From: Arenibacter antarcticus
GTDB lineage: Bacteria; Bacteroidota; Bacteroidia; Flavobacteriales; Flavobacteriaceae
Length of the DNA: 64,000 nucleotides
Assembly (NCBI RefSeq): GCF_041320605.1
Contig: NZ_CP166679.1
Location: 3,582,001-3,646,000, forward strand
Reading direction: 5' to 3'
The notes under the pieces are model-generated. The model saw only the letters and a list, made by a program, of their open reading frames with translations, did no database searches and was not told the origin of the DNA. Shown here piece by piece: positions 16,046 to 60,247 of the stretch; positions within the stretch are counted from its first letter, which is position 1, and the number at the start of each line of letters is the position of its first letter. Both the position numbers and the translations under genes were made by a program.

Positions 16046-16137
16046 GGGGAGCGTGACCAGTACGTACGGTTCTCTTCTCGTGTCCTGCAGGCGAGTGTGA
16101 GAGATTTAGGTGTGAGACTCCCTTTTACCTACTCGAC
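16046..16137 (+). mobile_element. Probable group II intron 3' end, relic
   Basis: GAGCGTGACCAGTACGTACGGTTCTC resembles a degraded intron domain V; GTGTGAGAG...GTGTGAGACTCCC and the ending CCTACTCGACTAT (from 16128) resemble domain VI and the 3' terminus. CCTACTCGACT is shared exactly with 12261-12271. It ends about 10 bp from the stop of the minus-strand gene at 16147, the same placement as the first relic. No reverse transcriptase nearby. Confidence 0.4.
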
Positions 16138-16146
16138 TATGCCCTT

Positions 16147-42621: not shown

Positions 42622-42681
42622 TAATGGAAAAAGGGTAAAATAATAATAGGTTTATTAAATTAATCTTTTAATCGTGATGCA

Positions 42682-43143
42682 ATGGAAATGGATAAAATAC
42701 AATGGGAAACAAAGTTGGATGATTTACTCTGCGAAATCGTAGCTTCCAAAGAAGCTTATGAAAAACTTGCCACAACAGAAGAATTACCGGGTAGAAAGCA
42801 CTTTTTTAAGGAACAAGCACTGCAAAGAATGGAATTTGAAACAATCTTGAGCGAGGAAATACTTGTTGTAAAAGAAGGGGGAATGCTTAAGCGAAGAACA
42901 CCAGACACTTGTGTCTTTGACAATGTGGTGGCTACCGTCACCAGTAGAAGGTTGACCGCTATAGAAGTAGATCGCCTGATATTGCAAAAAGAACAGGATC
43001 TTATTAAAAAATACCAGGAGGTTTTAGAATATCCGTACATTCCGGATGCCACGGATGCACTTTTACAGTCTCAGGCCGAGGATATGAACGATGTTGCACA
43101 AAAACTTAAATTGGACCTGAATTTGGAAGAAAATAACTTTTAA
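42682..43143 (+). CDS. Conserved helical protein of unknown function
   Basis: 153 residues, wholly helical and acidic, without signal or membrane segment. The N-terminal half (LCEIVASKEAYEKLATTEEL) and the ELPGRKHFFKEQALQRMEFE stretch recall ferritin-like or four-helix bundles such as DUF2383-type proteins, but I cannot name the family. It follows the SDR gene by 60 bp in the same direction, so they may share regulation. Confidence 0.65.
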   Translation: MEMDKIQWETKLDDLLCEIVASKEAYEKLATTEELPGRKHFFKEQALQRMEFETILSEEILVVKEGGMLKRRTPDTCVFDNVVATVTSRRLTAIEVDRLILQKEQDLIKKYQEVLEYPYIPDATDALLQSQAEDMNDVAQKLKLDLNLEENNF

Positions 43144-43230
43144 TTGAAATACCTATAAAAGAATAAACCATTTTCATAAAATGAGCATAAACGAAAATTG
43201 GTCGCCAATACCAATGAAGAAATGCGATCC

Positions 43231-43287
43231 TGACTGCCGTCAGGTAAGTTTACATATGACCGTTAAAAAAACAATTAATAGCTACCT
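43231..43287 (+). promoter_or_regulatory. Repeated leader element, copy A
   Basis: TATGACCGTTAAAAAAACAA followed by TTAATAGCTACCT leads directly into ATG 43288. The same block stands directly before the start codons at 54432 and 58971 on the minus strand. It is preceded by a TGACTGCCGTCAGGT palindrome-type motif. Confidence 0.55.
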
Positions 43288-43419
43288 ATGAAAAACATTA
43301 TAAGAGCTTTGCTGGCCGGTTGGGGAGCAAAAAAAATAGGAGGAGGTAAATGTGGCTGTATTGGGGTAGTCGTTGTTTTTTTAATTCTCTATTGGCTTTT
43401 GGGTCATGTGTTTAACTGA
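43288..43419 (+). CDS. 43-residue membrane protein (GWGAKKxGGGxxG type)
   Basis: MKNIIRALLAGWGAKKIGGG, then a Cys-Gly pair and one hydrophobic helix (GVVVVFLILYWLLGHVF). This miniature protein type, with a GWGAKK-GGG head and single helix ending WLLG, recurs in Flavobacteriaceae from memory. Too short for ordinary ORF calling. It starts exactly at the end of the repeated leader element, which supports expression. Inner membrane; function unknown. Confidence 0.65.
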   Translation: MKNIIRALLAGWGAKKIGGGKCGCIGVVVVFLILYWLLGHVFN

Positions 43420-43597
43420 TTTTCATCTAGTTGCTGAGATGACTACAAAGGCAAAGAAATATCCAACAAAGGCGATTTTAATAGCGTTTCAGTTCCAAAT
43501 AATGGTGTCAACCCTTTGCCACAACATGAGGATTCATTGCCATTCTTGTTCTTTGTTTCTGAAATTATAGTTTCTGAGAAAAGCAGAATATGGAATA

Positions 43598-44008
43598 TTA
43601 TTTTTTAAGAGTTCCACCAACATAGTTAAAGATTTCGGCTTTTAGACCTTTAAAATCGTCCGTACAATCCAAAATTTCCATTTCTAGATCATCGTGTTTG
43701 TGATAAAAGGAGGAATCCAAGGTGGCGGTACCAAATTGTATTAATCCACCAAGATGGTTTTCGTGTTTGGAAATTAGCTGCCTTAATTTTATTTTACGAG
43801 CTTCAAATTGTTCTAATCCCCCTAAATATTGCTGTATCCTTTCAAATAGATCTTGAGTATTGGGCTTAAAAATATCCGACTTTAACAATTGATCTATAAA
43901 CCGGGTTTCATCCTCCATAAACTGAAGGTCCGATTTCCAATGTTGTATGTGCCAATGCACCTTTTCAATTTTTGTGATAGGACTAATTTCTTTACGGTTA
44001 TTTTCCAT
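43598..44008 (-). CDS. Hypothetical helical protein
   Basis: 136 residues, soluble and mainly helical: ITKIEKVHWHIQHWKSDLQF, LFERIQQYLGGLEQFEARKI, ISKHENHLGGLIQF. No recognised family; the size suggests a small regulatory or stress protein. It sits alone between non-coding stretches. Confidence 0.55.
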   Translation of the reverse strand: MENNRKEISPITKIEKVHWHIQHWKSDLQFMEDETRFIDQLLKSDIFKPNTQDLFERIQQYLGGLEQFEARKIKLRQLISKHENHLGGLIQFGTATLDSSFYHKHDDLEMEILDCTDDFKGLKAEIFNYVGGTLKK

Positions 44009-44279
44009 TTGATCCTTATTTTGATAATTATCAATAATAGGATTTTTTTAAAGGGAATACTATGACCAATGTCAGTAATACTAAAAGATGTATTAACCTA
44101 TCAGCTTCGTTTTTAAATTCGTGCCATATTCGGGAGCTCTTGAAGAACTACATAGGTTTTTTTATGAGCCTATACTAGTTCCTTATTATTACTATTTCAT
44201 CATTTAAAATGATATAATTTTAAAATCGTTTCATGGGCTTACCCTAGGGTGTTTGACTAACCGCATATAATGTTCAATT

Positions 44280-47200
44280 TTACTGATCACTCGAAATCAA
44301 TGATTGTGATTTTTCAACTATATCTCTGATAATCAAATCTAATTCTACTGCCGATGAATATATGTGGTTCAGTAACTCTGTTTTCTCCTCCTCGGTTACT
44401 AAGCCATCCTTTATCAAATAAATCATCCCCATTAACCTCGCCAACGGAGCCCTTACCACGTGAGACTGAGTCCATGCTATATCCCTTAATTTTTGGTTTT
44501 GTGTCTCTATATTAAGCGCACGTTCCTCTAATTCACTATTGAGCTTTTGTAGGGACTCTTGATAGGTCTTTCGAAATGTTATATCGGTCATTGCTCCGAT
44601 AACTCGGATTGCTTTGCCACTTTTATTCCTAATTACAGTCCCTTTATCCCACACATAAACACTATCCCCGTTTTCTTTTAAAAATCGATATTCCGATTCC
44701 CATTTATTTAATTGTGAATCGTTGATAACTTTATATAATGAATCAATTACCCGTTCCTTATCCTCTGGATGCAACTTATTTTTCCATAATTGGAGATTAT
44801 CACTTTCTGAACGTATATCATGCCCAAAAAGAGATTTAAAAACTTCACTTACGTACATCGTATTTTCGGCAATATCCAAATCCCAAATAACGTCATTTGT
44901 TGCTTGGGAGACCCTTTTAAAACGTTCATGGGAAATTTTAATGGTAGCTTGCGAAGTTATTCGTTCACTCACATCTTTAATGAAAATGGAGATCCCATTA
45001 TCCGATGGATAGCTATTTATTTCGTACCATGTATTATAATCGGGGAAATAATCTTCAAATGTGAATTTGTTTTTATTTCTAATCGATTTAATAAATGTTT
45101 TAAAAATTTTATGGTCAGTAATTTGAGGAAATACCTTTTCTATATGTTTTCCTATAATTGTTTCTCGGTCCATATCAAAGCAATCTTCGGCTTTGCTATT
45201 CCAATAAGTGATTATTCCTTGGTTGGTTACAGAAATAAATGCATCACCAATACTTTCTAAAATTAAACTTCTCTCATCATTCGCAGCTTTAGAAGCTAAT
45301 TGTGATGCTTTAAGTTCATGTATATCCTGAAAACTTCCGTAAATTCTACTGCATAGGTTGACATTGGTTTCAGGTTTACCAATGATCCTGACCCACCTTT
45401 CTTGCCCTTTTGCAGTTAAGATTAATAGCTCTACATCAAAGGGCTCACCTTGATGAAACGTATTTTGGAGTAGGTCTGAAAATATTTTAGAACTTTTATG
45501 ATCCTTGTAAAAACCTATGATGCTATCGAGGGTGGGGACATAATTATTTTCTACCTCGTGTATTTTCTTGGTCATCTCCGACCAAAATACCGTGCCCTTA
45601 TCGAAATCAATTTCCCATGCACCTATACGAGCCAGTTCGGTCACCTCCTTAAGTAACTCTTCCAGCTGCTTTTTTTCTGTAATATCAGATCCAACACAAT
45701 AGATAGTACCTTTTTCTTGAGTTTGGTTGGCAGACCAACTAAGCCATTTAATTTCACCGTCCTTTGTTAGGTAGCAATTTTCAAAAGACTGAACAGATTC
45801 TCCCTGTTTAAGTAGATTTAGTTGCTCTATAGTGCTTATTTTGTCTTTTGGAAGTACGAACTCCATTAAATTTTCCCCAAGGAGTTCCGCTTCGGAATAG
45901 CCCAAAAGTTGGGTTGCAGCTGGATTAATTTTTTGAAATATTCCATCTTCTCTTATTTTACATAAAATGGCAGGGGTAAACTTGAAAATTTCATCAAGCT
46001 CAATTTCTAATTGTCTTCGGTTGATTGCCGTCCCTAAATAGGTTTGCAATTGTTTGAACAACGCACCATAGAATATTGGATTCTTTAATTTATCTTCTAT
46101 ACCTAATACAAGTATTCCTTTAACATCATCATTGTGTATCAGTGGTATGCCGACAACTTCTTGAGGGCAACATACATCAGAAGAAGGATTTCTTTCAAAA
46201 ATAGTTGCTTTTTCTATAGTATCCCATGCGGTTATTTTCTGATTTTCCCATAGAGTTCCGGGAAGCCCTTTACCGAATTGAAAACTGGTTGGGCTGGTAT
46301 TAGTAGTTAAAAAAGAATTACCCATTCCAGTTTGCGAATACTGGGCCACAAGTTTCATGGTGGTTTTATTTGAATCTGGCAACCATATTTGTCCTACATT
46401 GTAATTTATTTTTTTGGTTAAGTATTGTATTATGTTTACCAAGCAGGCCTCCAATATTCCATCTTTATTGAACAAAGCCCCAATTTCGTTCAAAATCTTT
46501 TTTTGCAGCTGTGAATTCTTTATTTCAGTTACGTCACGCTCTATGGAAACCCAATGTGTATATCTACCATTGTCATCAGCTACGGGACTTACAACGAAAT
46601 TCACCCAATAATCCTCACCAAGTTTGTTTTTACTCGTAATTGTCATTTCAAAAACTTCCCAACGAGACATCGCTTTTTCAATTTTCTTTAGTTCCGAAGG
46701 GGTTGTATTTGGACTTTTTAATATAGATGTGGTTTTTCCAAGGACTTCTTTTTCTGTATACCCCGTCATTTTAACGAAAGCCTGGTTGACATAAATAATT
46801 TTTCGTCCGCCTTGCTCGGATGGTTCTGCTTCGGTTATCATTACAGCTTCCGCGGTATTGGTCACCACAGACTCTAATAACCTAAGGTGCTGTTCTTCCT
46901 TTTTCTGATCTGTTATGTCTTGGATAGTGCCTTCGAAATAGTCTGGGTCACCTTTAGAATCCAAAACAAGATGGCCCAATCCATGCGCCCATCTTATAGA
47001 GCCATCGGGTAAAATAATTCTATAGGTGAAGTCTTGTATTTTATAATGTGAAGATGTTAATTGTTCCTTTTTTATAAATTGGGCTCTATCATCAGGATGA
47101 ATAGCGGCCAAAATGTTGTCATAAGTAAGGTCAAAAGTTTCCCTATTTCTCCCATAAATAGTATAAACCTCGTCGGACCAATAAACTGAATAATTAATCG

Positions 47201-48914
47201 GATCAATGCTGTAGTGACCAAGTTTGGCTATGGCTGCCGTAGTTTTCAATTTGCGTTCCGATTCCTTTAAACCATGTAAATACAATTCTCTTTGGGAAAC
47301 ATCAATACAGCTGATCAACATGCAGTCACGATCTTTAACCTTTATAGGGTGACCTACTATTTCTAACTGGGATAACGCTCCATTTTTACTTTGGTGTGTA
47401 AAAATGCCATAGTTAATTGTTCCATCTATGGATTTTGAGTTTTTTACAGAGTCGATGAATACTGGTACTTCAATTTTTGGTTTAAGGCGTATTACCTCCA
47501 TTCCTATCAACTCCTCCCTGCTATAACCAAAGTGCGTTACCATGTTGTCATTAACCTCAAGGATTTTATAGCTACCGAGATCTAAAATATATTTTGGGAA
47601 AGGATCTGAGTTGAAAAGGAAGCGCCCCTTTTCTTGTGAGGACTTTAGGTTATGAGGTATGGACATTCTTTCTGTAATGTCTCTGGCATTGACAACTATA
47701 CCTTGTATTACTGGATCTTCGCGTAAATTAAGTAACAATACTTCAATCCATTTCCAACTACCATTTTTGTGTTTAATTCTGAATGGTTTTGAAATATAGG
47801 GCTCATTTTTATAAAACTTTATAAAATTATAATAGGTGAATTCCCTATCCTCTTCATGCACAAAGTTGAAAATGTTCTTCCCGCTCAGTTCATCCGAGGT
47901 ATAACCCATGGGAAGCCCAGAACCCCCACTTGTAAAAATAAAATCCCCATCGGCATCTATAATAGTGAGCAAGTTATACCCAGCTTGGACCACTGAGGTA
48001 AACTTGGGCGATAAAAAATCGATTTGCTCCCAAACCTTTTTCTGTGGGGTAATATCATGAATTTCACCTTCAATGAAAGTAAGGTGGGCAAACTTATTTG
48101 AGGTTATCTTATTTGCTTTAATATGAATCCAAATAATCTGACCTGACTTGTGAAACATCCTAAACTCAATCTCATTCTGTAAGTTGCTTTTTTGGATCCA
48201 GATGTCAAGTCCTAAATTAAATTTGACCCTGTCGGAAGGGTGTATTAAATTCACCCACTGATTGAGGGTTTTAACCGCAAATTCATTCGGCGTATATCCG
48301 AGAATTTCTACAAAAAATGAGGGGTTTATATAGAATTTGTGCGATCCAATTTCCAATTTCCATGAGGTGACGCTGGTAACCACAATGGAATCTTCAACTG
48401 AAAAATTCCATAATTCGGTTAAGTCTATTACTTCATTGCTAGTTTTTTTTTCCTTTTTAACCGATATTAAGGAAACCGTGTGATCCGCTAGGGTTTGCAT
48501 TCCGTTGCGTTCTTTTGGACCTATAACCTTGGCATGGATATCGGATATAAAAAGAAGCCCTTCTGTTAAACCTAAGGAGTTCACTAAGGGTACTATGGCT
48601 ATAAAACTTGGATGATTCTCTGTAAGTTTAGCTGTTAAATCCTCCCTACTTTCGTCTTCATGGATGTTTTCAATGATCCGAATTTTGTTGGAGCCAGTAG
48701 AAAGATAGTCATTCAATAGGTTTTCAATCCAGGTTGTTGATTCTGGAGAAGATTCCTCGAAATATGATTTATTTTCAGGAATTTCCAACAAGGCTACCAT
48801 ATGGTGTGGAACCTCAAGTATAATAGAAGTTAGTTGGCAAATTTCCTCATAGATTTTATGTGGAAAAGCTAATTTTCGGTAGGACGGGAGGAACGAAACG
48901 ATATCTACAGACAT
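44280..48914 (-). CDS. Giant multi-PAS/GAF sensor protein ending after the H-box
   Basis: 1,544 residues. An N-terminal GAF-like region (to about 165) is followed by a series of PAS/PAC modules, seen from the repeated IxDITxxKK or IQDI linkers (GEIHDITPQKK, ARDITERM, IDVSQREL, IQDITDQKK, ERDVTEIK, GSDITEKKQ, FQDIHELK, IKDVSERI, MTDITFRK), with a second GAF around residues 800-960. The C-terminus has a coiled coil and an H-box-like helix (WTQSHVVRAPLARLMGMIYL) and stops about 60 residues later, with no HATPase domain. It is probably cytoplasmic, having no signal or membrane helix. It could be phosphorylated by, or dimerise with, another kinase; the missing domain is not encoded downstream on this strand (44009-44279 is non-coding). 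Confidence 0.85.
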   Translation of the reverse strand: MSVDIVSFLPSYRKLAFPHKIYEEICQLTSIILEVPHHMVALLEIPENKSYFEESSPESTTWIENLLNDYLSTGSNKIRIIENIHEDESREDLTAKLTENHPSFIAIVPLVNSLGLTEGLLFISDIHAKVIGPKERNGMQTLADHTVSLISVKKEKKTSNEVIDLTELWNFSVEDSIVVTSVTSWKLEIGSHKFYINPSFFVEILGYTPNEFAVKTLNQWVNLIHPSDRVKFNLGLDIWIQKSNLQNEIEFRMFHKSGQIIWIHIKANKITSNKFAHLTFIEGEIHDITPQKKVWEQIDFLSPKFTSVVQAGYNLLTIIDADGDFIFTSGGSGLPMGYTSDELSGKNIFNFVHEEDREFTYYNFIKFYKNEPYISKPFRIKHKNGSWKWIEVLLLNLREDPVIQGIVVNARDITERMSIPHNLKSSQEKGRFLFNSDPFPKYILDLGSYKILEVNDNMVTHFGYSREELIGMEVIRLKPKIEVPVFIDSVKNSKSIDGTINYGIFTHQSKNGALSQLEIVGHPIKVKDRDCMLISCIDVSQRELYLHGLKESERKLKTTAAIAKLGHYSIDPINYSVYWSDEVYTIYGRNRETFDLTYDNILAAIHPDDRAQFIKKEQLTSSHYKIQDFTYRIILPDGSIRWAHGLGHLVLDSKGDPDYFEGTIQDITDQKKEEQHLRLLESVVTNTAEAVMITEAEPSEQGGRKIIYVNQAFVKMTGYTEKEVLGKTTSILKSPNTTPSELKKIEKAMSRWEVFEMTITSKNKLGEDYWVNFVVSPVADDNGRYTHWVSIERDVTEIKNSQLQKKILNEIGALFNKDGILEACLVNIIQYLTKKINYNVGQIWLPDSNKTTMKLVAQYSQTGMGNSFLTTNTSPTSFQFGKGLPGTLWENQKITAWDTIEKATIFERNPSSDVCCPQEVVGIPLIHNDDVKGILVLGIEDKLKNPIFYGALFKQLQTYLGTAINRRQLEIELDEIFKFTPAILCKIREDGIFQKINPAATQLLGYSEAELLGENLMEFVLPKDKISTIEQLNLLKQGESVQSFENCYLTKDGEIKWLSWSANQTQEKGTIYCVGSDITEKKQLEELLKEVTELARIGAWEIDFDKGTVFWSEMTKKIHEVENNYVPTLDSIIGFYKDHKSSKIFSDLLQNTFHQGEPFDVELLILTAKGQERWVRIIGKPETNVNLCSRIYGSFQDIHELKASQLASKAANDERSLILESIGDAFISVTNQGIITYWNSKAEDCFDMDRETIIGKHIEKVFPQITDHKIFKTFIKSIRNKNKFTFEDYFPDYNTWYEINSYPSDNGISIFIKDVSERITSQATIKISHERFKRVSQATNDVIWDLDIAENTMYVSEVFKSLFGHDIRSESDNLQLWKNKLHPEDKERVIDSLYKVINDSQLNKWESEYRFLKENGDSVYVWDKGTVIRNKSGKAIRVIGAMTDITFRKTYQESLQKLNSELEERALNIETQNQKLRDIAWTQSHVVRAPLARLMGMIYLIKDGLVTEEEKTELLNHIYSSAVELDLIIRDIVEKSQSLISSDQ

Positions 48915-49579
48915 TAAAATTTTATATTTAAATAAAGATCTAATTTCTTCTTATTATAAAACACAAATTTATTATTTACGGTTTAATACTCAACGGAAAT
49001 AATAAGCTTAAATTTTGAAAGATTTAAACATAAAAATAAACCGGAATATAACTAGTAGAACTTGAAATTCAAGTTTGTTAAAGTACTAATAAATTAATTT
49101 AATGTCGATTAAATATCATTTTTTGTCGATTAAATGTATATTTTAATTCTTTTCTATCTCAACATCACTAACATTTCGTGAAGCTAAATTTCGGATATTT
49201 ATACTTTAAGACACTAACAGATAGTAGTTTAATCGTTTTTTGAAATAGTCCTTGGAGTTGATACTATTTTAAGAAAAGTCTCAGATTCGGTAATCTTTTA
49301 AATTCTACATTTCCTTTGATTAATTTATTGAGGTTTTAAGTGTTCCTTGCTGTCGTGAAAATCAGACACATTCCAAAAAGGATATGTACTACGAGTGTTT
49401 ACTTAAATAAGTAAGAAATTCCCTCAAAATAAGAAGCACTTGATAAATTCTTGACTTTGATTCTAAGAGAATAGCAGAGAAATGAAAAATTTCATAATTA
49501 ATATGAATTCTTTATTTTGTGCTAAAGCAAGATGAGTTTATTATCTACATTGATGGAAAGGTAAAAAAGGTGTATTTGC
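48915..49579. other. Long non-coding gap with a direct repeat
   Basis: Two copies of TGTCGATTAAAT (49103-49114 and 49124-49135), 21 bp apart (two helical turns), lie about 190 bp upstream of the PAS protein start; a plausible operator. The remainder is AT-rich without ORFs or RNA genes I can support. Confidence 0.35.
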
Positions 49580-50261
49580 TTAATAATTTAAAGGTAACTC
49601 TAAATATTCTACATACACCCCAAACAGAATATGCCAAATGAAATAATGGCCCAGTCGCATTGTTAAGGATACCAAAAATCCGGATTTTTTAAAATGAATG
49701 GCTTGTAAAAGATTCATTGTAAAACCAGTAACTAGAGAATATATAACTACTGGTAGTATTTGGTCGCCAAGCTGTTCTATGGGCTCCCTTAAGGAGGTGA
49801 GGACTGCAGCTGTCCAGAAAAACCCTGCTAGATGCCTTCCTTTTTTATAATAGGCACCCAATAACATGATAAGGGTCAACGGAATTAACCGGTAAAACAC
49901 TTCTATTTCAAAGGCACTGGATACATATAGAAAAATAGAATAGGGGAATGGCTGTAAAATTGGAGGTAACTCCTGATAGGGTTCGGGATGTAGAATAAAA
50001 CTTGAATATAAGGAGATCTAACAATCCAAAGAATAATCCAACACAAAAAGGTATTATAAATCGATTTCGTAAGGGGACATTCCTTTGCCAAAAATTGGGC
50101 AGGTTGGCCTTATCTTGAAGAAAGATAAATGGGATTCCGATACATAAGATTAAAATGTTCGTTATATCCCATATCCGAATATTGATATGTGTATTGGTGA
50201 TTCTGTTACCATAGAGGATTCCTATCCCCGCCAATAATAACAGCCATATTACAGCAAGCAC
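49580..50261 (-). pseudogene. CPBP-like intramembrane protease relic, frameshifted
   Basis: Two frames overlap around 49930-49945. The first (MLAVIWLLLLAGIGILYG to about ATSRTLSGV) has several membrane segments; the second continues as PYSIFLYVSSAFEIEVFYRL and ends GVYVEYLELPLNY. The EIEVFYR motif and a later GHYFIWHILFG resemble the Glu/Arg and His motifs of CPBP (Abi-type) membrane proteases. Joined, they would give about 226 residues. A one-base indel splits the gene. Confidence 0.5.
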
Positions 50262-50535
50262 CCTCTTCCAGTTTATCCCTATAAACAGTTATACTATATA
50301 TTCCCGAACCCGTTTATTGATCAATCTACTACCTTCTTGTTAGCTTCAAAATTGATTTTAGAATACAGCACAACAAAAAATAGGGAACAATCATTAGGTT
50401 TTGGTAGCTGGCTAAATTAAAATGTTCTATGAAAATTAGGCTATTGGTTGGGATAGGGTTGGTAAGGATATTTGGCGATAAAATAGGCGTAGGATTGGGA
50501 GATGAATTTTTGTAAATATATTTGTTAGCCAGAAT

Positions 50536-51000
50536 CTATTTTGACCATTTTATTCTTACGGCAGTTATTTTGTCTAACTCAAGTCTGTTTTCTTCTAATT
50601 TCTTAAATCCATTTTTTAAGTAAAACCTCAAAGGAGATTTATAAATTTCTCCGTTTTTCTTCCTGTCATTACTGTGGTCAATTACCCAACCATTTAATTC
50701 AGTTTCTTTCTCTTTTGCCAGATTAAGAACCTTGGTTCCAAACCCTCTACCGTGAAGTTTTGAATCTATAATTAGCGTAAACCATTTGTCATTGTCTCGC
50801 TTAAAGGCAAAATACCAACCTGTGATTTCTTGACTTTCATCAATCATTAAAATATGAGATTGTTCTGTTTTATTAATGAGATAATGATCAAATTCCGCAA
50901 GAGTTTGATAATTCAATTTTTCAGGATATTCCCTATTCCAAAGATTTAGAATTTCTATTTTGTCAGTTTTTGATAGCTGTGTCAACTTGATAAATTCCAC
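50536..51000 (-). CDS. GNAT-family N-acetyltransferase
   Basis: 154 residues. The GNAT core is visible: EITGWYFAFKRDNDKWFTLI (strands 3-4) and the acetyl-CoA loop DSKLHGRGFGTKVLNLAKE, then a C-terminal segment with RFYLKNGFKKLE, typical of strand 6. Substrate unknown. Single gene. Confidence 0.88.
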   Translation of the reverse strand: MEFIKLTQLSKTDKIEILNLWNREYPEKLNYQTLAEFDHYLINKTEQSHILMIDESQEITGWYFAFKRDNDKWFTLIIDSKLHGRGFGTKVLNLAKEKETELNGWVIDHSNDRKKNGEIYKSPLRFYLKNGFKKLEENRLELDKITAVRIKWSK

Positions 51001-51145
51001 TTTTATGTTTTGACTGGTTAAACTAGATACAATGCTTTCGGACTACAATCTAGAACACTTTAGAAACGTGTACAAATCCCACGGGACTAGGTTAGCTAGG
51101 GGCTCACGGAATGCCTTCTGTGCCTATTTTTATGTTGTGGTTGTC

Positions 51146-53128
51146 TTATTTAATTAGTTTATGGAACTGTTCTATTTTACGCTGATTTCCTTGAATATAA
51201 ATAATGTCCCCTTGTTTTATTATTTCGTCTGGTTGTATACTTTCCAACATTTCATTTTTTCTTTTAATGGCCAATATATTTATTCCGTATTTAACTCTTA
51301 AGTTCAATTCCATTAATGGTTTTCCTAAAAATTTATTACTGTCTGCACTTATGCGTAAACATGTAATGTTGAAATCTGCCACTTCGCTGGGCCTGTAGGT
51401 TATCGGGCGTTTTAATTCCCCTTTAAATAATTGGTAATTGTCTGCCCTAATCTTTTCAATTAGTTGGTCAATATCGTCTTCAGGTACAAGAAAATTTTGA
51501 AGTACATGGGTAAATATTTGTACTGAAGTTTCAAACTCTTCAGGAATTACTTCATCGGCGCCTAAAGCAATTAATTCAGAGGTTTCCTTAACGTACCTAG
51601 TGCGTACCACCAAATAGATCGAATTAGAATGGGAACGAATATTTTTAATGATGCTTCGGGTGGCAAAGTTGTCTGAAATAGCAATTACAGCCGCTCTGGC
51701 ATTAGAAAGCCCTACAGTTTCTAGAATATGGTCTTGTGTAGCGTCACCGAAAATAATAGGTATGCCTTTTGCTTTTTCACGTTTAACTGTATTGGCGTTC
51801 ATCTCAATAACAACATACGAAATATTACTCGCACCTGCTGCCTTAGCCAAATTACTACCATTTACCCCATAACCGATTATGACTAAATGATTTTGGAGTG
51901 TGTGATCTACAATTTCTGCCTTATCTTTTTCTGAAACTAAAGTTCTACCTAATCCTAGTTTTTTTGAGACACCAATAATCCATTTGGCAATATGCTCTGA
52001 AAAAATGATTACAAAGGGCGTAAGGATCATTGATACAATAGATACAGATAAGAAATATTGGTTAGTTTCAGCGCTTAATAGATTATATTCTATGCCCACT
52101 TTTGAAAGAATAAAAGCAAATTCCCCAACTTGAAAAAGGGACAAACCTGTCAATAATACGGTTCTAGTGGGATACTTAAGAATAGCCACCGCTGCAGCTG
52201 TTATAGATGATTTTACAATTAATACTACCAAAAGTAAAAGTAGGATGACAGGAATATTATTTAAGAAAAAGTTTAAATCGAGCAACATTCCTACGGAAAC
52301 AAAAAAGAAACTTGTAAAAAGCTCTCGAAAAGGAAGAATAATACTCGTGGCTTGATGGCTGTATTCTGATTCAGAAATAATTAGACCTGCAATAAAAGCT
52401 CCTAATGCCAGTGACAACCCTGCTACTGAGGTGAAAAAGGCAATAGCAAAGCATAGGGTAATGGTAACTAACAGGAAAAGTTCTTTACTATTGGTTTTTG
52501 CAACGGCATGCATTAATCTTGGAACAACATAGCGTGCGCTAATATATGTGAGGACAAGAACAATCCCTGATTTCAACAATAGTGAAAGAATACTCATTCC
52601 AATATTAGTTGATTCTCCTGCTATCATTGGAGTAATAAGCATCATGGGTACTACAATGATGTCCTGAAAAATTAAAATCGCCAATGCATTTCTTGCATGG
52701 GGAGTAGAAATCTGTTGTCTGTCTTGTAGCGTTTTTAAAACTATTGCTGTACTAGATAAGGAGAAAAGAAACCCCACAAATACTGATTCATTCCACGGAT
52801 ATCCTAAGAGGTGATATACAAGCGCTGCTACAGCGACGGTTATACCTACTTGAAAAAAACCACCGATAAAAAAGGTTTTTTTAATTGAGACTAATTGTTT
52901 TATGGATAATTCCATACCAATCACAAAGAGCAATAGAATTACTCCAATTTCAGAGAGAATTTCCACTTGCTCTAGAGCATTAATTAGGCTTAATCCATAG
53001 GGTCCAATAATTACCCCTGTCAGTAGAAATCCAATTATAGAAGGAAGTTTCAGCTTTTGAAGCACAAAAACAATAACGACCGAAAAACCTAAAAGGATGA
53101 GTATGTCCTGTAGTAATGGTAAATGCAT
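51146..53128 (-). CDS. Kef-type monovalent cation:proton antiporter (CPA2) with TrkA domains
   Basis: 660 residues. Membrane part of about 12 helices (IIGFLLTGVIIGPYGLSLIN, FLFSLSSTAIVLKTLQD, SLFQVGEFAFILSKVGIEY), then a TrkA-N Rossmann domain (LVIIGYGVNGSNLAKAAG, IIFGDATQDHILETVGLS) and a C-terminal TrkA-C domain (YGINILAIKRKNEML). The plan is that of KefB/KefC-like potassium efflux systems with nucleotide gating. Probably exports K+ during electrophile or pH stress; inferred from the family. Confidence 0.92.
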   Translation of the reverse strand: MHLPLLQDILILLGFSVVIVFVLQKLKLPSIIGFLLTGVIIGPYGLSLINALEQVEILSEIGVILLLFVIGMELSIKQLVSIKKTFFIGGFFQVGITVAVAALVYHLLGYPWNESVFVGFLFSLSSTAIVLKTLQDRQQISTPHARNALAILIFQDIIVVPMMLITPMIAGESTNIGMSILSLLLKSGIVLVLTYISARYVVPRLMHAVAKTNSKELFLLVTITLCFAIAFFTSVAGLSLALGAFIAGLIISESEYSHQATSIILPFRELFTSFFFVSVGMLLDLNFFLNNIPVILLLLLVVLIVKSSITAAAVAILKYPTRTVLLTGLSLFQVGEFAFILSKVGIEYNLLSAETNQYFLSVSIVSMILTPFVIIFSEHIAKWIIGVSKKLGLGRTLVSEKDKAEIVDHTLQNHLVIIGYGVNGSNLAKAAGASNISYVVIEMNANTVKREKAKGIPIIFGDATQDHILETVGLSNARAAVIAISDNFATRSIIKNIRSHSNSIYLVVRTRYVKETSELIALGADEVIPEEFETSVQIFTHVLQNFLVPEDDIDQLIEKIRADNYQLFKGELKRPITYRPSEVADFNITCLRISADSNKFLGKPLMELNLRVKYGINILAIKRKNEMLESIQPDEIIKQGDIIYIQGNQRKIEQFHKLIK

Positions 53129-53177
53129 TAGCTATTTATGACTTTTGTTTACTAATTAAGTTCGAATCCCGTAATGT

Positions 53178-53756
53178 TTATTGGTTTTGTTGTAAAATGT
53201 TATGTTCTATACAGTCTATTTTATTCAATAATAATAGCAAGCCTATTACGAAAATAGTACACCCTAATGCGGTATAAACTAAATTGCTCCATAGAAAATA
53301 ACCCAGACCCATAAAAACTGCTCCTAATACTGTCATTATACACCCAATTAAATTCGATTTAATAAAATTAAGCGCGTGAATTGAAAGTCCAAGAAATAAC
53401 AATGAGGGACCAACATACACAATGGGAAAAGCAATGGCAGGAGTGTTGGACAATTGATTGTAAAAGGCTTTCCGACTAACAATATCATCTGCAAAACTCC
53501 ATGAAATAAAATCGATTGTATTTAGTCCAATAAATGCTATTACTCCCAAGGATGTAAGTAAAGAACCAATCTTACCGATTTTATTTTTTGGGAATATTCT
53601 ATTAAAATTAATGAGTAATACAGCTCCTATCAAATTCAGCCAATGAGCAAAATCGATAGGTTTTTGAGCATAGGCAAATTCATTTCCTTGAGTGAAAATC
53701 CAATAGCTTACAACAAAAAGGACAAGTCCGGTTATACAGGTCGTTTTTAATTTCAA
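53178..53756 (-). CDS. Hypothetical membrane protein
   Basis: 192 residues, six hydrophobic segments (TTCITGLVLFVVSYWIFTQG, FPIVYVGPSLLFLGLSIHAL, LIGCIMTVLGAVFMGLGYFL, ALGCTIFVIGLLLLLNKI). No family recognised. It lies 49 bp upstream of the antiporter gene in the same direction and may form an operon with it. Confidence 0.6.
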   Translation of the reverse strand: MKLKTTCITGLVLFVVSYWIFTQGNEFAYAQKPIDFAHWLNLIGAVLLINFNRIFPKNKIGKIGSLLTSLGVIAFIGLNTIDFISWSFADDIVSRKAFYNQLSNTPAIAFPIVYVGPSLLFLGLSIHALNFIKSNLIGCIMTVLGAVFMGLGYFLWSNLVYTALGCTIFVIGLLLLLNKIDCIEHNILQQNQ

Positions 53757-54000
53757 GGGTCTTTTTTAAATGATTTATATCGTTTACTATATGGAAGTAG
53801 GGCAGTAGCAAGGTATAAACTTTCAAGTTTACAATGCGCTAAAACCTTGTATTTTGATATCGTTTTTTATTCTAAAGTCGATACATCACATTTCAAAATT
53901 GCGTAATATTCTATTTATTGGACATCATAACACGAAAAAGCCTGTAAACACAGCATTTTATGCTTAATTTGCTAGAGCCATTGTTGTGGTGTAAATTTTT

Positions 54001-54432
54001 TCATTCTTTAGAATTAGAATTAGAAATCAAATTATCTAATTCTAAATAGTTGCTTTTCATAAAGCTCAATGCAAAAGCTGCAGCAGAAGCGGTATAAACA
54101 GAAAAGTCAAGGGCTCCCTTAATTCCAGTTGAAAAAGTCATTGATAATGCGAAAATTAACAGTAAGAGTCCACTCAATTTAGCAATCAGTCTCGTTTTAA
54201 ATCCAATAATCAAGAAAAGGGCAAAAATAATTTCGGCTGCGGTGGCTAAGATTCCAATTGTAGGAATTAGCTGGTGGGGAATCCATGGATTTATAAGTTG
54301 GGTGTAGCTCAAGAAATTATCCCAATTTCCCCAAGCAGAAACTTCCTTGGGCCACATTCCAATTCGGTCAGCAACTGCTGATAAAAACCCAATTGAAATA
54401 GCAAGTCTCAAGAATAATTTTACAATTTTCAT
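54001..54432 (-). CDS. DoxX-family membrane protein
   Basis: 143 residues, four membrane helices. RLAISIGFLSAVADRIG, ATAAEIIFALFLIIGFKTRL and LIFALSMTFSTG fit the DoxX fold, small quinone-pathway/redox-linked membrane proteins. Its start codon is directly preceded by repeated leader copy B, shared with two unrelated genes. Function in this organism unknown. Confidence 0.82.
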   Translation of the reverse strand: MKIVKLFLRLAISIGFLSAVADRIGMWPKEVSAWGNWDNFLSYTQLINPWIPHQLIPTIGILATAAEIIFALFLIIGFKTRLIAKLSGLLLLIFALSMTFSTGIKGALDFSVYTASAAAFALSFMKSNYLELDNLISNSNSKE

Positions 54433-54504
54433 ATGCAGCTATTTATTGATTTTTAACGGTCATACTTCGGCTGCACCTACCTCCGGAAGGTAAACTCCAG
54501 TGCG
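54433..54504 (-). promoter_or_regulatory. Repeated leader element, copy B
   Basis: Minus strand: TATGACCGTTAAAAATCAAT then AAATAGCTGCAT and ATG of the DoxX gene. Upstream of that, ACTGGAGTTTACCTTCCGGA and GGTAGG are shared with copy C. Confidence 0.6.
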
Positions 54505-54651
54505 TGGATCTAAACTAGGTTGTGAATTAAAAAACCATTTTATTTTCCCCCATGTTATACTAATGCGTGTTACAACCTTCACTTTATAACTTTAGAGCAC
54601 CTCATGTTAGTAGAATGGATCAGACGCTAAGAATACTGTAGCTAGTTCCCT

Positions 54652-55104
54652 CTACGCCTCCCGTTTCTTCCCTGTAATCTCTTGTATTCTTATCTGATAT
54701 ACAATAGGGGTGCCCTTAGTATATGATTTGCTCGAAAATTCATTGATAAATTTGACCTCTTTATTTTCTTTTCGGTGGATGATATTTTTTACCCCTTCAA
54801 AAAAGTCATGCAATTTTTGCTTGGCAAAGCTACCTTCTAGCTCTTCAAAATCACCTTGAATTTGGACTGACTTCCAGTTTGCCAAGGATTGTACCTGCTC
54901 AGTAACCATTGAAACCGATGGGTTTTGTCGCATGGCTTCTATTTTATGCCCTTCCGAGGTATAGCCTATTATGCAATTCTCTGTTGGGTCAAAATAATAA
55001 GTTATTGGAATCACATAGGGCTTCCCTTGAAATACATAGGCTAAGTGACCGTTGTAGTTATTTCTAAGGATGCCGGTGCTTTCATTTATTGTTAAATCTG
55101 TCAT
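54652..55104 (-). CDS. Pyridoxamine 5'-phosphate oxidase-like flavin-binding protein
   Basis: 150 residues. GHLAYVFQGKPYVIPITYYF, CIIGYTSEGHKIEAMRQNPS and WKSVQIQGDFEELE match the split-barrel PNPOx-like family (NimA/HugZ-type), which binds FMN or haem. Substrate unknown. Just upstream, overlapping its start, is a universal-stress-protein relic. Confidence 0.85.
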   Translation of the reverse strand: MTDLTINESTGILRNNYNGHLAYVFQGKPYVIPITYYFDPTENCIIGYTSEGHKIEAMRQNPSVSMVTEQVQSLANWKSVQIQGDFEELEGSFAKQKLHDFFEGVKNIIHRKENKEVKFINEFSSKSYTKGTPIVYQIRIQEITGKKREA

Positions 55105-55300
55105 TGTTTTTATTTTGATGGTTATGGATAGTTTTAATAGTCACTTTACCTGAGAGGACCAATAATGGCACCTCAGAATACATACTTATATCATCGATTA
55201 CAGGTTCACGGATCAACCGCTGATAAAGACCGCTCCGATTGTGTACCATGGAGAACAGGTCTATTTTCAACTTATGATTAGGATCTAGACACATTTTCAT
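55082..55300 (-). pseudogene. C-terminal relic of a universal stress protein
   Basis: 72 codons. IDLFSMVHNRSGLYQRLIRE followed by PVIDDISMYSEVPLLVLSGK is the C-terminal half of an UspA-domain protein (His-motif strand, then the VPLLVL strand), with no ATP-binding N-terminal part. Upstream sequence shows no matching frame, so the 5' end is lost. It overlaps the next gene by 23 bp. Confidence 0.55.
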
Positions 55301-55801
55301 TTCATCCTATATAGTAACTTCAAAGTTAGTGGGGAACAGTGACAATTGAAATGACTTTGGTCACCTTACAAAAGTTAAACAGCGTACTGATCCTTTTACA
55401 TTTGTTATTGGATAACTTTTATATTAGCGCTTTTGATTCAACACCTTTGAAAGATAGGGGTAAGGGTGAGAATGATCTTATAATTTGATGTTGTGTGTGT
55501 TTGTGGTGGGACTCCATAATAGATTCTATCTAAACATTTTAAGGGTTTGTATGAAATGTTAATTTTTTTTTAATATTATGTTAAAATACCCTATATTGGG
55601 CATTTTAAATTTTTGAATTATAGCATAATTTGGGTTTCAACACTAGTATTGAAAGCCAATTTTAACGGTCGAAAAGAATGACACCGGTCTGTAGTTAGAA
55701 TTTCCGGGGTAGTTAACTAAAATGAATACTAAAAAAAATAAGCGAGATAATTGGCAGTATAAGTTGCCGTTTTTTAACCAAACCAAATTTAAAAATCAGA
55801 T
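55301..55801. other. Non-coding gap upstream of the DUF5723 gene
   Basis: AT-rich; no supported ORF or RNA gene. It probably contains divergent promoter signals that I could not fix. Confidence 0.35.
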
Positions 55802-57139
55802 ATGAAAAGTATTGTATTAAGTTTAGTCCTCTTTGTTGCGTTCACCTATCAAGTAAATTCTCAATATTACGGTGGATTGGAAAATGATAATTTTAACGGG
55901 CTTCATGGGGTTATGATAAATCCTGCCAATATTGTTGATTCTCGGATCAAGACTGAAGTCAATATTTTTTCCGTACAAATGCTGCTTGGAACGGATTATA
56001 TTCCTTTAACAATTGATAATGTCACCAATATGTTAAATGATGATACTTTTGAAGTATTTCCGAAAGATGATAATGAAATGCTCCTCAATTTAGATGTAAT
56101 GGGACCTTCCTTTATGTTTAACCTTACCGAAAAGAGTAGTATTGGTGTTCTTACCAAGGTACGTGCCGCTAATAACTCAAGAAATATAAATGCCGATTTA
56201 ATGGAGTCTTTAATCTCTAATTTTTCTGAGGATGACTTTAATTTTAACATGCAAAAATTAAACCAGACAACCCATGTATGGGGCGAAATTGGTCTGGCCT
56301 ATGGAAGGATTATTTTGGATAAGGAAAATAATTTTTTAAAGGCAGGGATAACCCTAAAATACTTATTAGGAGGAGGTGTTTTACAGGCAACTTCTAATTC
56401 CCTTACTGGAGAATATGAATATAATCAAAATGATCCTTTACAATCTGTTGTAAACTTAAATGGAGACCTTTCTTATATGGTGAGCTACGAAAACGAGGAT
56501 GATTATTTTAGTACCATTACTCCTGGTTTTGGGACTGATTTAGGGATGGTATATGAGTATAGACCAGAAAGTACAAGAACCATAACGGAAGGAAGTAATG
56601 GAAAAGGCCAGAATAAATATAAAATGAAAATTGGGTTATCTATTTTGGATATTGGTAGCATTACGTATAAAGAGAGAGAAGAAACCGACTATGTTATTAA
56701 TGGTTCCGTGTCAGCTGAAGAATTAGAGAATGATACACAACAAGCCTTAGAAGATAACTTTCCAGGAACTACCACGGTAAAGGATCTGAAGGTGAGTTTA
56801 CCTACTTCCTTACAATTGAACATAGATTATAGGGTAGCCAATCGTTTTTATGCCAGCCTTAGTTATAACCAATCGCTATTGGATCAGGATACGCCATACA
56901 ATAATCATGGATTAAATATATTCAGTATATCTCCAAGATTTGAATCAAAATTCTTTAGCTTATATCTCCCGGTAGGTTTTAGTAAATTGGGAGGTACCGC
57001 TGTTGGTGCTGGACTAAGACTTGGCCCATTGTTTGTGGGGTCTGGGAGTATTATATCCAATCTTATTTCTGACAACGCCATGGCGGCCAATATTTATGCT
57101 GGCTTAAAAATCCCGTTGTACCAAAAGAGAAAATTATAA
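55802..57139 (+). CDS. DUF5723-family outer-membrane beta-barrel protein
   Basis: 445 residues. The signal peptide is KSIVLSLVLFVAFTYQVNSQ. Mature start YYGGLENDNFNGLHGVMINP, NPANIVDSR and later alternating strands ending in a C-terminal aromatic strand (MAANIYAGLKIPLYQKRKL) fit DUF5723, a Bacteroidota outer-membrane barrel of unknown role, sometimes linked to gliding/type IX secretion genes. A strong terminator follows. Confidence 0.87.
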   Translation: MKSIVLSLVLFVAFTYQVNSQYYGGLENDNFNGLHGVMINPANIVDSRIKTEVNIFSVQMLLGTDYIPLTIDNVTNMLNDDTFEVFPKDDNEMLLNLDVMGPSFMFNLTEKSSIGVLTKVRAANNSRNINADLMESLISNFSEDDFNFNMQKLNQTTHVWGEIGLAYGRIILDKENNFLKAGITLKYLLGGGVLQATSNSLTGEYEYNQNDPLQSVVNLNGDLSYMVSYENEDDYFSTITPGFGTDLGMVYEYRPESTRTITEGSNGKGQNKYKMKIGLSILDIGSITYKEREETDYVINGSVSAEELENDTQQALEDNFPGTTTVKDLKVSLPTSLQLNIDYRVANRFYASLSYNQSLLDQDTPYNNHGLNIFSISPRFESKFFSLYLPVGFSKLGGTAVGAGLRLGPLFVGSGSIISNLISDNAMAANIYAGLKIPLYQKRKL

Positions 57140-57148
57140 GTGGATTCG

Positions 57149-57186
57149 ATAAGTATAAAGGGCTATTTAAAGCCCTTTATACTTAT
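57149..57186. terminator. Strong palindromic terminator after the DUF5723 gene
   Basis: Sixteen-bp perfect stem, arms 57149-57164 and 57171-57186 (ATAAGTATAAAGGGCT), 6-nt loop. It should stop transcription of the DUF5723 gene and, in the other direction, of the SDR gene. Confidence 0.85.
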
Positions 57187-57333
57187 ATGAATTATTTGGT
57201 GTAATTAAGTAGGAGCATCCTTTTAATTTCTAAGATATTAATGGCTAGAGGGTGAAATAACTTAAGGCATTAATATCATCCATTGGAAATATTAAAAAAA
57301 TATTACTTGAATACAATGCTGAAAATGACCTTA

Positions 57334-58137
57334 TTATTTACGACCGGTGAAATGTTCCATAGTTTTATATATTCCTAATACATTACCAGCAAACCAATCG
57401 AATAAGTTTAGAGACATTATTGCCTGCCCTAGGCGTGTAAATCTGTATATGTAACCTGGAATGGTTATCATTTTTTTATTGCTCTCAATCGCTTTTACAA
57501 TGGTAAGAGCTACAACTTCTGGCTCTAGTATTGGAAGCTTGGACTTTACCCCATCAAACATTCCAGTATTTACGTAATAGGGCATTATTGTAGTAACACT
57601 TATGTCTTTCTTCAGTTGTTTCATTTCTAAACGCAAACTATCAGACCAACCAATAAGGGCCCATTTGCTCGCAGCATATACTGACATTTTGGGATTTGAA
57701 ATTAAACCACCTGATGATGCTATATTACATATGTGTCCAGAATTTCGATTTAGCATATCCGCTAAAAATTCTAACGTGACAAGCATAGGTGCGTTAGCGT
57801 TGATATTCATTGTATTTGTAATATCTGTAACCGAATGTTCCTTAAAATATTTACCTATGACGATTCCGGCATTATTTATCAGGACGTCCACTCCACCTAT
57901 ATCCTGTTTTACTTTTTTACCAGTCTCTTGTATTTGCTGAACATTAGATACATCTACATTAAAACCAAAAAGATTTTCGTTGTTAGAAAACTCAGATAAT
58001 GTTTCATCAATATTCTCTTGATTAAAATCCCAAATGATCACTTTAGCATGGCGTTCTAACATTAAGCGAACCATTATTTTACCAATGCCAGATGCACCAC
58101 CTGTTATTAATACTATTTTCCCTTTTAAATACTTCAT
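57334..58137 (-). CDS. Short-chain dehydrogenase/reductase
   Basis: 267 residues. TGGASGIGKIMVRLMLERHA (cofactor), NNAGIVIGKYF, catalytic Ser in IASSGGLISNPKMS, YAASKWALIGW (Tyr-x-x-x-Lys). The C-terminal region is longer and hydrophobic, as in classical SDRs acting on lipids or ketones. It follows the esterase gene by 21 bp in the same direction, so probably an operon. Substrate unknown. Confidence 0.88.
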   Translation of the reverse strand: MKYLKGKIVLITGGASGIGKIMVRLMLERHAKVIIWDFNQENIDETLSEFSNNENLFGFNVDVSNVQQIQETGKKVKQDIGGVDVLINNAGIVIGKYFKEHSVTDITNTMNINANAPMLVTLEFLADMLNRNSGHICNIASSGGLISNPKMSVYAASKWALIGWSDSLRLEMKQLKKDISVTTIMPYYVNTGMFDGVKSKLPILEPEVVALTIVKAIESNKKMITIPGYIYRFTRLGQAIMSLNLFDWFAGNVLGIYKTMEHFTGRK

Positions 58138-58158
58138 TTTATTGTTATAAGGTACTTT

Positions 58159-58971
58159 CTATAATTTAAAATAATCATTAAAAAATAGAAGCTGATATTT
58201 TATCGAATTTGTCCAGTAATTCCAATTGTGTTTTCCTGGACGTTCTGTATAGTCATGTGCTATATTTCTTTCAACTAGTTTTTCATGTAATCTTTTGTTA
58301 GCATCGTAAAAGAAATCACCAATTCCACAGTCAAATACGATTTTCAAACTATTTTCCGTTAATTTATATACCATATTAATTACCGTGTTTTCTTCCCAAT
58401 TTTCTTTATGGTCAGCATATTCTCCCAATCGTTTTTTTAGATCCCAGTTATTAGGGAAAGGACGAATATCTAAACCTCCGCTCATACTACCAGCTGCTCC
58501 CCAAATATCTTGATGTTTAAAAGCTAGATAAAATGCACCATGTCCACCCATACTTAAACCTGTAATAGCTCTCCCAGACTTTGTGGCTGTAGTATTATAT
58601 TCTTTATCTATAGTGCTAATGAGTTCCTTTGAAATATAAGTTTCGTATTTCATTTTTTCATCAATTGGACTATCAAAATACCAACTAGTAAGACCTCCGT
58701 CAGGGCAAACAATTATAATGTTATAGGTATCAACATATTCTTTTAATTCTGGAACCTTTGATACCCAATCAGCATAATTTCCACCAGCACCATGAAGTAG
58801 ATATACTACGGGGTAGCTTTCTTTTTGAGTGGAATAATTATCGGGTGTTATTACCATATTGGGAATAGATTTATTCATGGATTTACTCACAACCATAACT
58901 GTATCTACCTGAGAGGCGTTTACGATTATAGTATTAACAGTTAAAAAAAGGAATAGTAATTTTAGTTTCAT
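58159..58971 (-). CDS. Secreted esterase (alpha/beta hydrolase, esterase D/feruloyl-esterase-like)
   Basis: 270 residues. The signal peptide is KLKLLFLFLTVNTIIVNA. YPVVYLLHGAGGNYADWVSK, nucleophile in GLSMGGHGAFYLAF (Ser of G-x-S-x-G), and GKHNWNYWTNSIKYQL with the catalytic His match the PF00756 esterase family (esterase D, antigen 85, feruloyl esterase). Exported; likely removes acyl or phenolic esters from carbohydrates. Leader copy C lies directly before its ATG. Confidence 0.88.
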   Translation of the reverse strand: MKLKLLFLFLTVNTIIVNASQVDTVMVVSKSMNKSIPNMVITPDNYSTQKESYPVVYLLHGAGGNYADWVSKVPELKEYVDTYNIIIVCPDGGLTSWYFDSPIDEKMKYETYISKELISTIDKEYNTTATKSGRAITGLSMGGHGAFYLAFKHQDIWGAAGSMSGGLDIRPFPNNWDLKKRLGEYADHKENWEENTVINMVYKLTENSLKIVFDCGIGDFFYDANKRLHEKLVERNIAHDYTERPGKHNWNYWTNSIKYQLLFFNDYFKL

Positions 58972-59040
58972 ATGTAGCTATTTAATGTTTTTTAACGGTC
59001 ATAGTTCAACTGCGCCTACCTCCGGCAGGTAAACTCCAGT
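58972..59040 (-). promoter_or_regulatory. Repeated leader element, copy C
   Basis: Minus strand: ACTGGAGTTTACCTGCCGGA...GGTAGG, then TATGACCGTTAAAAAACATT and AAATAGCTACAT directly before the esterase ATG. Same block as at 43231 and 54433. Confidence 0.6.
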
Positions 59041-59331
59041 ACGGGTATGTTACCCCACCGACGGCAGTCAAGTTCACATTTCTTCATTAGTATTTACAAC
59101 CAATTTTCGGTCATGCTTAAAACGTATATGTTTAATATTATTTAGCGCCCTAATATAGGGCTAGTATTTTTCTTTTAAGGTATTGTACTGTTATTTATAG
59201 GCGAGAAATCATGCTGTTTATTAAAACTCCTTGTTAGTGATAATTTAGTAGTATGGCGCGTATCTGACTTTATACTAGCTGAGCGTTTTATTTTCTAGAA
59301 AGCCCCTGTAGTAAAAAAAAATATTTTGTTT

Positions 59332-59979: not shown

Positions 59980-60247
59980 ATTCTATATTAAATTACAACC
60001 TTTTCAGTTCTCAATATTTTCACAATACATATTCCGATAAGATCGTAGTGTATCCATTAAATTCAAAACCAATTACTACATTTACTTGTTTTTGAACCGT
60101 ATCCGGTAGCAGCGCTAGCCATACTCTTACCAAAATCCATTTACCAATGTCATGAGGATAATGGTTGTAAGAGGCAATAGTATTTTGAGTGTTTGTTTTG
60201 TCTCTTCGTCATACCATTTCAGGTTTGCCTTAGTTTATTTTCTAATT

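Follow-up and report, generated by a model that had tools for sequence, protein, structure and literature searches.

Three genes in a 64,000-nt stretch of the Arenibacter antarcticus chromosome (positions 3582001-3646000 of 4.69 Mb; hereafter the window) start directly behind a common leader sequence. All three are decayed copies of an element that is scattered through the chromosome and measures ~90 bp, or up to ~177 bp in its longer forms. Our overall explanation is that this is probably a small, non-autonomous mobile element that inserted at start codons. Its copies are scattered through the chromosome and lie precisely at start codons, relatives hold the corresponding empty sites, the GTG start of kdsB has been swapped for ATG, and two helices within the element covary. 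A preliminary description of the window had suggested either a mobile promoter or 5'-untranslated region (5'-UTR) cassette or a translation-control element. It is the 5'-UTR part of the mobile cassette that stands, given the dispersed near-identical copies, unrelated flanks, empty sites in relatives and family-wide spread, while a role of the leader in translation control is possible.

Anatomy and dispersal of the element

From its left NTG to its right ATG, the unit is laid out as NTG-AAAYGAGCAT...CATNTGACCNTTAAAAAACAATAAATA...CANATG, of which the left-hand AAAYGAGCAT and the right-hand CATNTGACCNTTAAAAAACAATAAATA...CANATG are conserved (93-nt consensus). The commonest form in A. antarcticus measures 93 nt from NTG to ATG (11 of 41 copies) and the longest 177 nt. 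When all genomes were pooled, 78 of the 87 copies with a clear left end were 92–94 nt long (lengths of 86–102 nt were admitted). A left NTG is present in 33 of the 41 A. antarcticus copies, where the junction reads ATGAAA (28), GTGAAA (3), or TTGAAA (2), and the remaining eight junctions are decayed. Copies also occur in tandem at a single start codon, the next copy following directly after 4/41 A. antarcticus copies and 27/107 copies in other genomes. The two ends (AAAYGAGCAT and CANATG) do not form an inverted repeat, and terminal inverted repeats of the type carried by miniature inverted-repeat transposable elements (MITEs) were not seen.

The longer forms contain additional sequence. A hairpin resembling repetitive extragenic palindromes (REPs), GTGCTGAGCGSAGYCGAAG, lies at the same place inside long forms from two genera (A. 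antarcticus 1088790 and 1648144; loci L284, L295, and L305), and long forms of A. antarcticus and of the copy-rich genome G216 both carry it at the equivalent position. All five matches to GTGCTGAGCGSAGYCGAAG in the fetched A. antarcticus DNA (≤2 mismatches) fall inside elements. GTAG was noted in the extra module of several long A. antarcticus forms and is missing from the 93-nt consensus, with no dedicated search having been made for it. A second reading frame remains open to ~10 nt before the start codon in many A. antarcticus copies. We rejected a coding element, since the differences by codon position among the 11 copies of 93 nt (4, 21, and 17) form a non-coding pattern; that only 30 of 73 clear-left-end copies from all genomes keep this second frame also disfavours it.

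In the chromosome, TATGACCGTTAAAAA gave 36 matches at ≤1 mismatch, compared with three for a reversed-pattern control, and the 27-mer GACCGTTAAAAANCAATAAATANCTAC from the 3' end gave 34 matches at ≤3 mismatches (control, 0). These counts place the leader far above chance. Profile searches with nhmmer of 195 kb around the earlier matches identified at least 41 two-ended copies. This count is a lower bound that excludes five places matched by the left profile only and four matched by the right profile only (one of the window's leaders, copy B below, among the latter), and at least two of these one-ended places resemble chance matches.

The element is not confined to one species. Within the host genus, 17 of 18 genomes were matched, with 2 to 69 pieces in each matching genome (E≤0.1). 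Searching the family with a 97-nt query gave matches in 45 of 299 genomes at E≤1e-6, with only three candidates scored per genome, and a fixed-length pattern was found in 72 of 397 family genomes and 57 of 237 genera, the reversed-pattern control being 0 in all rows listed. An exact-pattern scan of named genomes returned four loci, which belong to Arenibacter certesii, A. nanhaiticus, A. latericius, and Salegentibacter tibetensis. The family Flavobacteriaceae includes A. certesii and S. tibetensis. Plasmids and phages gave no blastn match to the 97-mer, and viral contigs no match to the one exact pattern searched. Genome G216 alone holds 61 element matches. Among 24 clear copies from 30 of its loci, at least 95% identity was observed in 34 of 97 equal-length copy pairs, with left and right flanks just 0.37 and 0.25 identical. 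Near-identical copies between unrelated flanks suggest recent movement.

Position at start codons

The right end of the element coincides with the beginning of a gene in nearly all cases. An open reading frame (ORF) of at least 40 aa follows the right ATG in 34 of 37 terminal A. antarcticus copies (at least 100 aa in 33), with the three exceptions running for 19, 14, and 10 codons. In other genomes, the same was observed after 75 of 80 non-tandem copies, counting ORFs that run off the locus. By comparison, the same A. antarcticus DNA contains 247 further ATGAAA sites that begin a closed ORF, and 73 of these ORFs reach 40 aa. Pfam searches of seven A. antarcticus N-termini identified a ketoacyl synthase, a cytidylyltransferase, a GTPase, GAPDH, a CDP-alcohol transferase, a thiamine phosphate synthase, and a pirin; the gene names fabF and kdsB are our reading of the Pfam matches and the N-termini. 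A common pathway is not evident among these genes.

The same counts bear on an alternative that we consider plausible but less likely than not, in which NTGAA(A) is targeted anywhere, start codons as such are not recognised, and copies landing inside genes are purged. The start reads ATGAAA in 33 of the 37 A. antarcticus and 76 of the 80 other terminal copies, which makes it likely that such a motif is targeted, and ATGAAA is frequent at starts. The alternative accounts for part of the pattern. However, it predicts that about one-third of the copies would lie at starts, judging from the window's ATGAAA sites (13 at gene starts, 28 between genes, and 59 inside genes), whereas 34 of 37 do so. 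This prediction in turn needs to be interpreted with caution, considering that the window genes are crude ORF calls, that some sites "between" genes may be true starts (16 of 57 window genes have an ATGAAA in frame within their first 25 codons), and that the 13 starts include the window's own copies.

Empty sites and exchange of the start codon

To compare occupied with unoccupied sites, 28 A. antarcticus proteins were sought in five congeners, which gave 91 regions, picked by eye, for 26 proteins (those at 3225604 and at copy B of the window were left out of the set). Just 8 of the 91 regions contained the element (profile E≤0.05) and 83 were without it, with the caveat that badly decayed copies could escape and that some best matches may be paralogues. 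Where the flanks of element-free regions can be aligned, they continue directly to the start codon (e.g., 4107129 vs. L184 and 1088702 vs. L129). In 77 regions that lack the element and match from residue 1 onwards, the last 16 nt of the left flank have a mean identity of 0.50 when positioned so that they end at the start codon, against a background of 0.31, and in 25 of the 77 exactly this position was the best of the offsets tried. For 12 of 25 sites, one or more relatives had their best offset within 1 nt of it, at an identity of ≥0.69.

The clearest exchange is seen at kdsB. Both empty congeners (G002 and G003) start this gene with GTG. The filled copies have GTG on the left in A. antarcticus, G006, and G001 and ACG in G017, with ATG on the right in all four, and G015 likewise has GTG on the left and ATG on the right. 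Taken together with the GTG-starting empty relatives, this arrangement indicates that the right ATG belongs to the element and that the left codon is the old start. Target duplication was absent when filled and empty congeners were compared at kdsB. In a pirin-type gene that starts ATGAAT, the left junction still reads ATGAAA, which sets the exchange point 5' of the sixth base. A single copy from A. certesii has ATGCAA on the right, and this would place the exchange at TG, unless it arose by later mutation.

We regard insertion as very likely. It would take place in one orientation, directly 3' of the start codon and preferably in genes beginning NTG-AAA. The old start codon would be left behind on the left, and the last three bases of the element (ATG) would serve as the new start, leaving the protein unaltered.

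Pairing within the element

Two helices were recognised by comparing copies. One joins an inner hexamer, CATNTG, to the terminal CANATG that contains the start codon; the fixed-length pattern leaves one base free in each. Inner and terminal hexamers were complementary in 113 of the 130 distinct genome-and-string pairs listed, which come from 50 genomes (shuffle mean 47, maximum 67 in 10,000 shuffles), and all four Watson-Crick types occur among these pairings. In 40 aligned copies chosen by eye, this start-codon helix is 97.5% paired. The first helix (columns 6–13 with 52–59) is 64.7% paired, with both-side changes at all eight pairs. Jointly, the two helices exceeded all 500 shuffles in cells paired, both-side-changed cells, and covariation score, and 499 of 500 on two other measures. 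They also beat every slid control, a comparison biased by the structure having been drawn from the same sequences. Without selection, 87 clear copies had 474/522 and 443/696 cells paired, above all 2000 shuffles (maxima 454 and 394). Many of the unpaired cells are GA/GA tandems, in place of which some lineages have Watson-Crick pairs.

These results do not amount to one fixed fold. RNAalifold, unaided, recovered the terminal helix only, and the A. antarcticus consensus, taken as a single strand, folds differently, its z-scores being weak at -1.67 (RNA) and -1.41 (DNA); two other types scored between -2.56 and -3.76. A known RNA family was rejected, as Rfam covariance models, HEARO included, did not match the element (window positions 42000–60000 searched to E 5 and 13 loci to E 2).

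Possible mode of movement and alternative explanations

It is possible that a trans-acting protein moves the element as a hairpin-bearing single strand, in the manner of IS200/IS605 or RAYT (REP-associated tyrosine transposase) enzymes, and that the inner hexamer helps to pick the cleavage site by reading the element's own terminal ATG. We offer this single-strand mechanism with a guide tentatively, because none of the 18 A. antarcticus copies of ≥130 nt retains the inner CATNTG.

Several observations weigh against our explanation. The long copies mostly have AGTATG in place of CATNTG, and they recur in several size classes, which argues against the helix being needed for movement or kept for regulation. 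The distance from guide to end (25 nt, without a conserved hairpin) differs from that described for IS200/IS605 elements in PMC6006769. A transposase gene was not found inside any copy examined. Congener G002, with 28 element matches, has no match to PF01797, and G216 has a single PF01797 gene, which by its motifs reads as a RAYT and which has other palindromes around it. Finally, the remaining sites of the 25 above are too diverged for the empty-site junction to be judged.

In the host genus, 20 loci were examined out of 48 places with a PF01797 match, and in nine copy-rich genomes 30 loci out of 45 such places. None of them had a PF01797 gene inside the element, and the elements found close to PF01797 genes belong to adjacent genes. 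L212 and L201 were rejected as autonomous partners, their Y1 genes being upstream of element-carrying genes. The G216 RAYT (L315:1474-2025) sits between trp-operon-type genes and is flanked by CAAAACCTGTGAGGTCT palindromes; before it, the trpF-type gene has an element left end at L315 571, ~0.9 kb upstream.

A more specific proposal, which we find doubtful, is that the element is a passenger of a trans-acting RAYT (TnpAREP), similar to a REP doublet forming a hairpin (REPIN). Outside the genus, one or more PF01797 genes were present in each of the nine copy-rich genomes searched. The sole one in G216 reading as a RAYT, the REP-like hairpin at the same spot in the long forms of two genera, and the presence of GTAG, the canonical REP tag, in several long A. 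antarcticus forms would all be consistent with such a passenger. Nonetheless, the palindromes flanking the G216 RAYT are not copies of the element, GTAG is absent from the 93-nt consensus, and G002 carries the element without a PF01797 match.

The start-codon helix could also be read as a cis-acting RNA leader, in which the inner CAUNUG hides the start codon in CANAUG and copies spread because they are regulatory. This would agree with a start codon held in a helix that covaries across genera, with the retention of CATNTG in 17 of 21 A. antarcticus copies of 90–122 nt, and with the second frame stopping ~10 nt before the start in many A. antarcticus copies. In the kdsB copies, the hexamers still pair in the last A. 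antarcticus copy, G001, and G015, but the pairing is broken in G006 and G017. Moreover, the long A. antarcticus copies are without CATNTG. Among 27 distinct G216 copies, one pair of the first helix is broken by A-C in four and weakened to G-U in five, as if the halves were mixed without selection. Given also that 83 of 91 congener regions do without the element and that the tested genes have no evident common pathway, we judge the regulatory explanation improbable and, on balance, favour a mobile, mostly selfish element.

That an RNA-guided recombinase of the IS110 type moves the element appears highly improbable. The pairing of a guide with the element's own end recalls the bridge RNA, which is the guide of IS110 elements, and the shared TG could be the exchange point. 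However, PF02371 (IS110) is absent from 5 of the 13 copy-rich genomes searched, two of which (G216 and G198) are 99% complete and the other three 84–87%. Lastly, the view that the leaders are what is left of 5' gene regions that were duplicated has nothing in its favour besides the shared leader itself and is refuted by the unrelated flanks and genes and by the dozens of copies.

The three leaders in the window

The leader motif abuts ATG at 43288 (+), 54432 (-), and 58971 (-), exactly as the preliminary description had it. The three copies (A to C) and the genes that they start are as follows.

43176..43290, + strand: copy A, from its left NTG (decayed to ATA) to its 3' ATG (43288-43290), with profile matches at both ends
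43253..43258, + strand: inner hexamer of copy A, CATATG, which from the sequence pairs at five of six positions with the 3' terminal CCTATG (43285-43290)
43288..43419, + strand: hydrophobic ORF of 43 aa starting at the ATG of copy A, without a Pfam match
54430..54515, - strand: copy B, 3' half only, with its 3' ATG at 54430-54432 and no match to the left-end profile
54001..54432, - strand: DoxX-like protein beginning at the ATG of copy B (E 4.7e-4; 21.2 bits, slightly under the Pfam cut-off of 23.6)
58969..59125, - strand: copy C, a long form (161 class) with a decayed left end and its 3' ATG at 58969-58971
58159..58971, - strand: esterase started by copy C (PF00756, E 8.1e-34)

Copies B and C had been reported to share a further 35 bp upstream. 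They do share upstream sequence, over a longer extent than claimed: they are 82% identical over 98 nt, of which ~20 nt are coding. Copies A and C have a 58-nt upstream block in common (84%), a 5' part that copy B lacks. The earlier statement that identity ends at the start codon is nearly correct, as ATGAAA is common to all three copies and they diverge only afterwards. A weaker match noted at 53128 was rejected as a fourth copy, as far as tested, since GACCGTTAAAAA is missing from its upstream sequence and the 3'-end profile found no match there at E≤10. The preliminary description had allowed that these copies might be the only ones or might derive from a duplicated gene 5' region; dozens of copies exist in the chromosome, and their flanks and genes are unrelated.

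The window also contains other repeats. Nine tandem copies with a spacing of 51 bp occupy 16067-16722 (64–100% identity to the reference copy), an array of ACTGGG/ACTAGA-type hexamers spaced by 12 or 18 bp lies at 18073-18180, and a 242-bp direct repeat with 97% identity is found at 2215-2456 and 10689-10930.

Start codons as a possible niche

In Bacteroidetes, initiation proceeds without Shine-Dalgarno sequences and is favoured by upstream adenines and low structure (PMC6847099). With initiation of this kind, parting a 5' region from its start codon would be less harmful. Start codons may thus represent a tolerated niche for the mobile element, in a host that does not rely on Shine-Dalgarno sequences and for an element that brings an A-rich leader. 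The element base at -3 is C and not the favoured A, and hence the element is not an ideal leader. A further and more speculative step would be to recognise a class of start-codon-homing elements, in which the inner CATNTG would have two tasks, marking the 3' terminus of the element itself and reading the target start, while an enzyme mobilises the element, initiation free of Shine-Dalgarno sequences provides the safe site, and starts and leaders are repeatedly swapped in housekeeping genes. We did not find a description of this element in the literature searched, a search that did not reach most subscription papers or any preprints.

Mobile elements near important genes normally disrupt them, whereas this leader element spares the protein at housekeeping-type starts (among them fatty-acid, LPS-sugar, GTPase, and GAPDH genes). 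Protein-sparing insertion would let an element become abundant at the most sensitive positions of a genome. The element could mislead the annotation of 5' regions in the host family, and its copies provide a set of naturally exchanged leaders with which translation without Shine-Dalgarno sequences can be studied. It also points to an insertion activity with an NTG(AA) target.

Comparison with known systems

MITEs such as ERIC, Correia, and RUP are non-autonomous dispersed repeats of ~100 bp. The element is likewise non-autonomous, dispersed, and ~100 bp in size, but differs from MITEs in that no terminal inverted repeats were seen and no target duplication was found at kdsB. With REPs and REPINs it shares its small size, many copies, structure, and lack of an enzyme of its own. 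A REP-like hairpin occurs in its long forms, and GTAG in several of those from A. antarcticus. Unlike REPs, which are mainly intergenic, it is found at start codons in one orientation and has a 93-nt core without GTAG, and the palindromes beside the sole PF01797 gene of G216 are not element copies.

Rickettsia palindromic elements are small repeats as well, and the genes that they enter are not destroyed (PMC10969869). Many of them lie in frame within proteins, whereas the leader element lies ahead of the coding part and supplies a new start codon. The TAACTGA repeats of Beggiatoaceae occur directly before the start codons of unrelated genes (PMC4679880), which is the position taken by our element. 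These are heptamer direct repeats of a different sequence, and the abstract of that study names no insertion mechanism.

The comparison with the IS200/IS605 superfamily is the most extensive. The guides of these elements are tetranucleotides at the feet of hairpins (PMC6006769), while the guide of our element would consist of six Watson-Crick pairs and is not a tetranucleotide at a hairpin foot. Neither a transposase nor an RNA-guided nuclease gene was found with the element, and its sites are start codons. On the other hand, NTG or NTGA is the target-adjacent motif of several IsrB proteins of this superfamily, as PMC9581776 reports, and the left NTG of the element matches this motif, a parallel and nothing further. 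Like IS200/IS605 elements, our element has no inverted ends, no target duplication at kdsB, a fixed orientation, and hairpins. In addition, its left-flanking motif recurs at its right end, as in that superfamily. Its internal bases pair with the right terminus, which may parallel the guide pairing of IS200/IS605, but the long A. antarcticus copies lack the inner hexamer.

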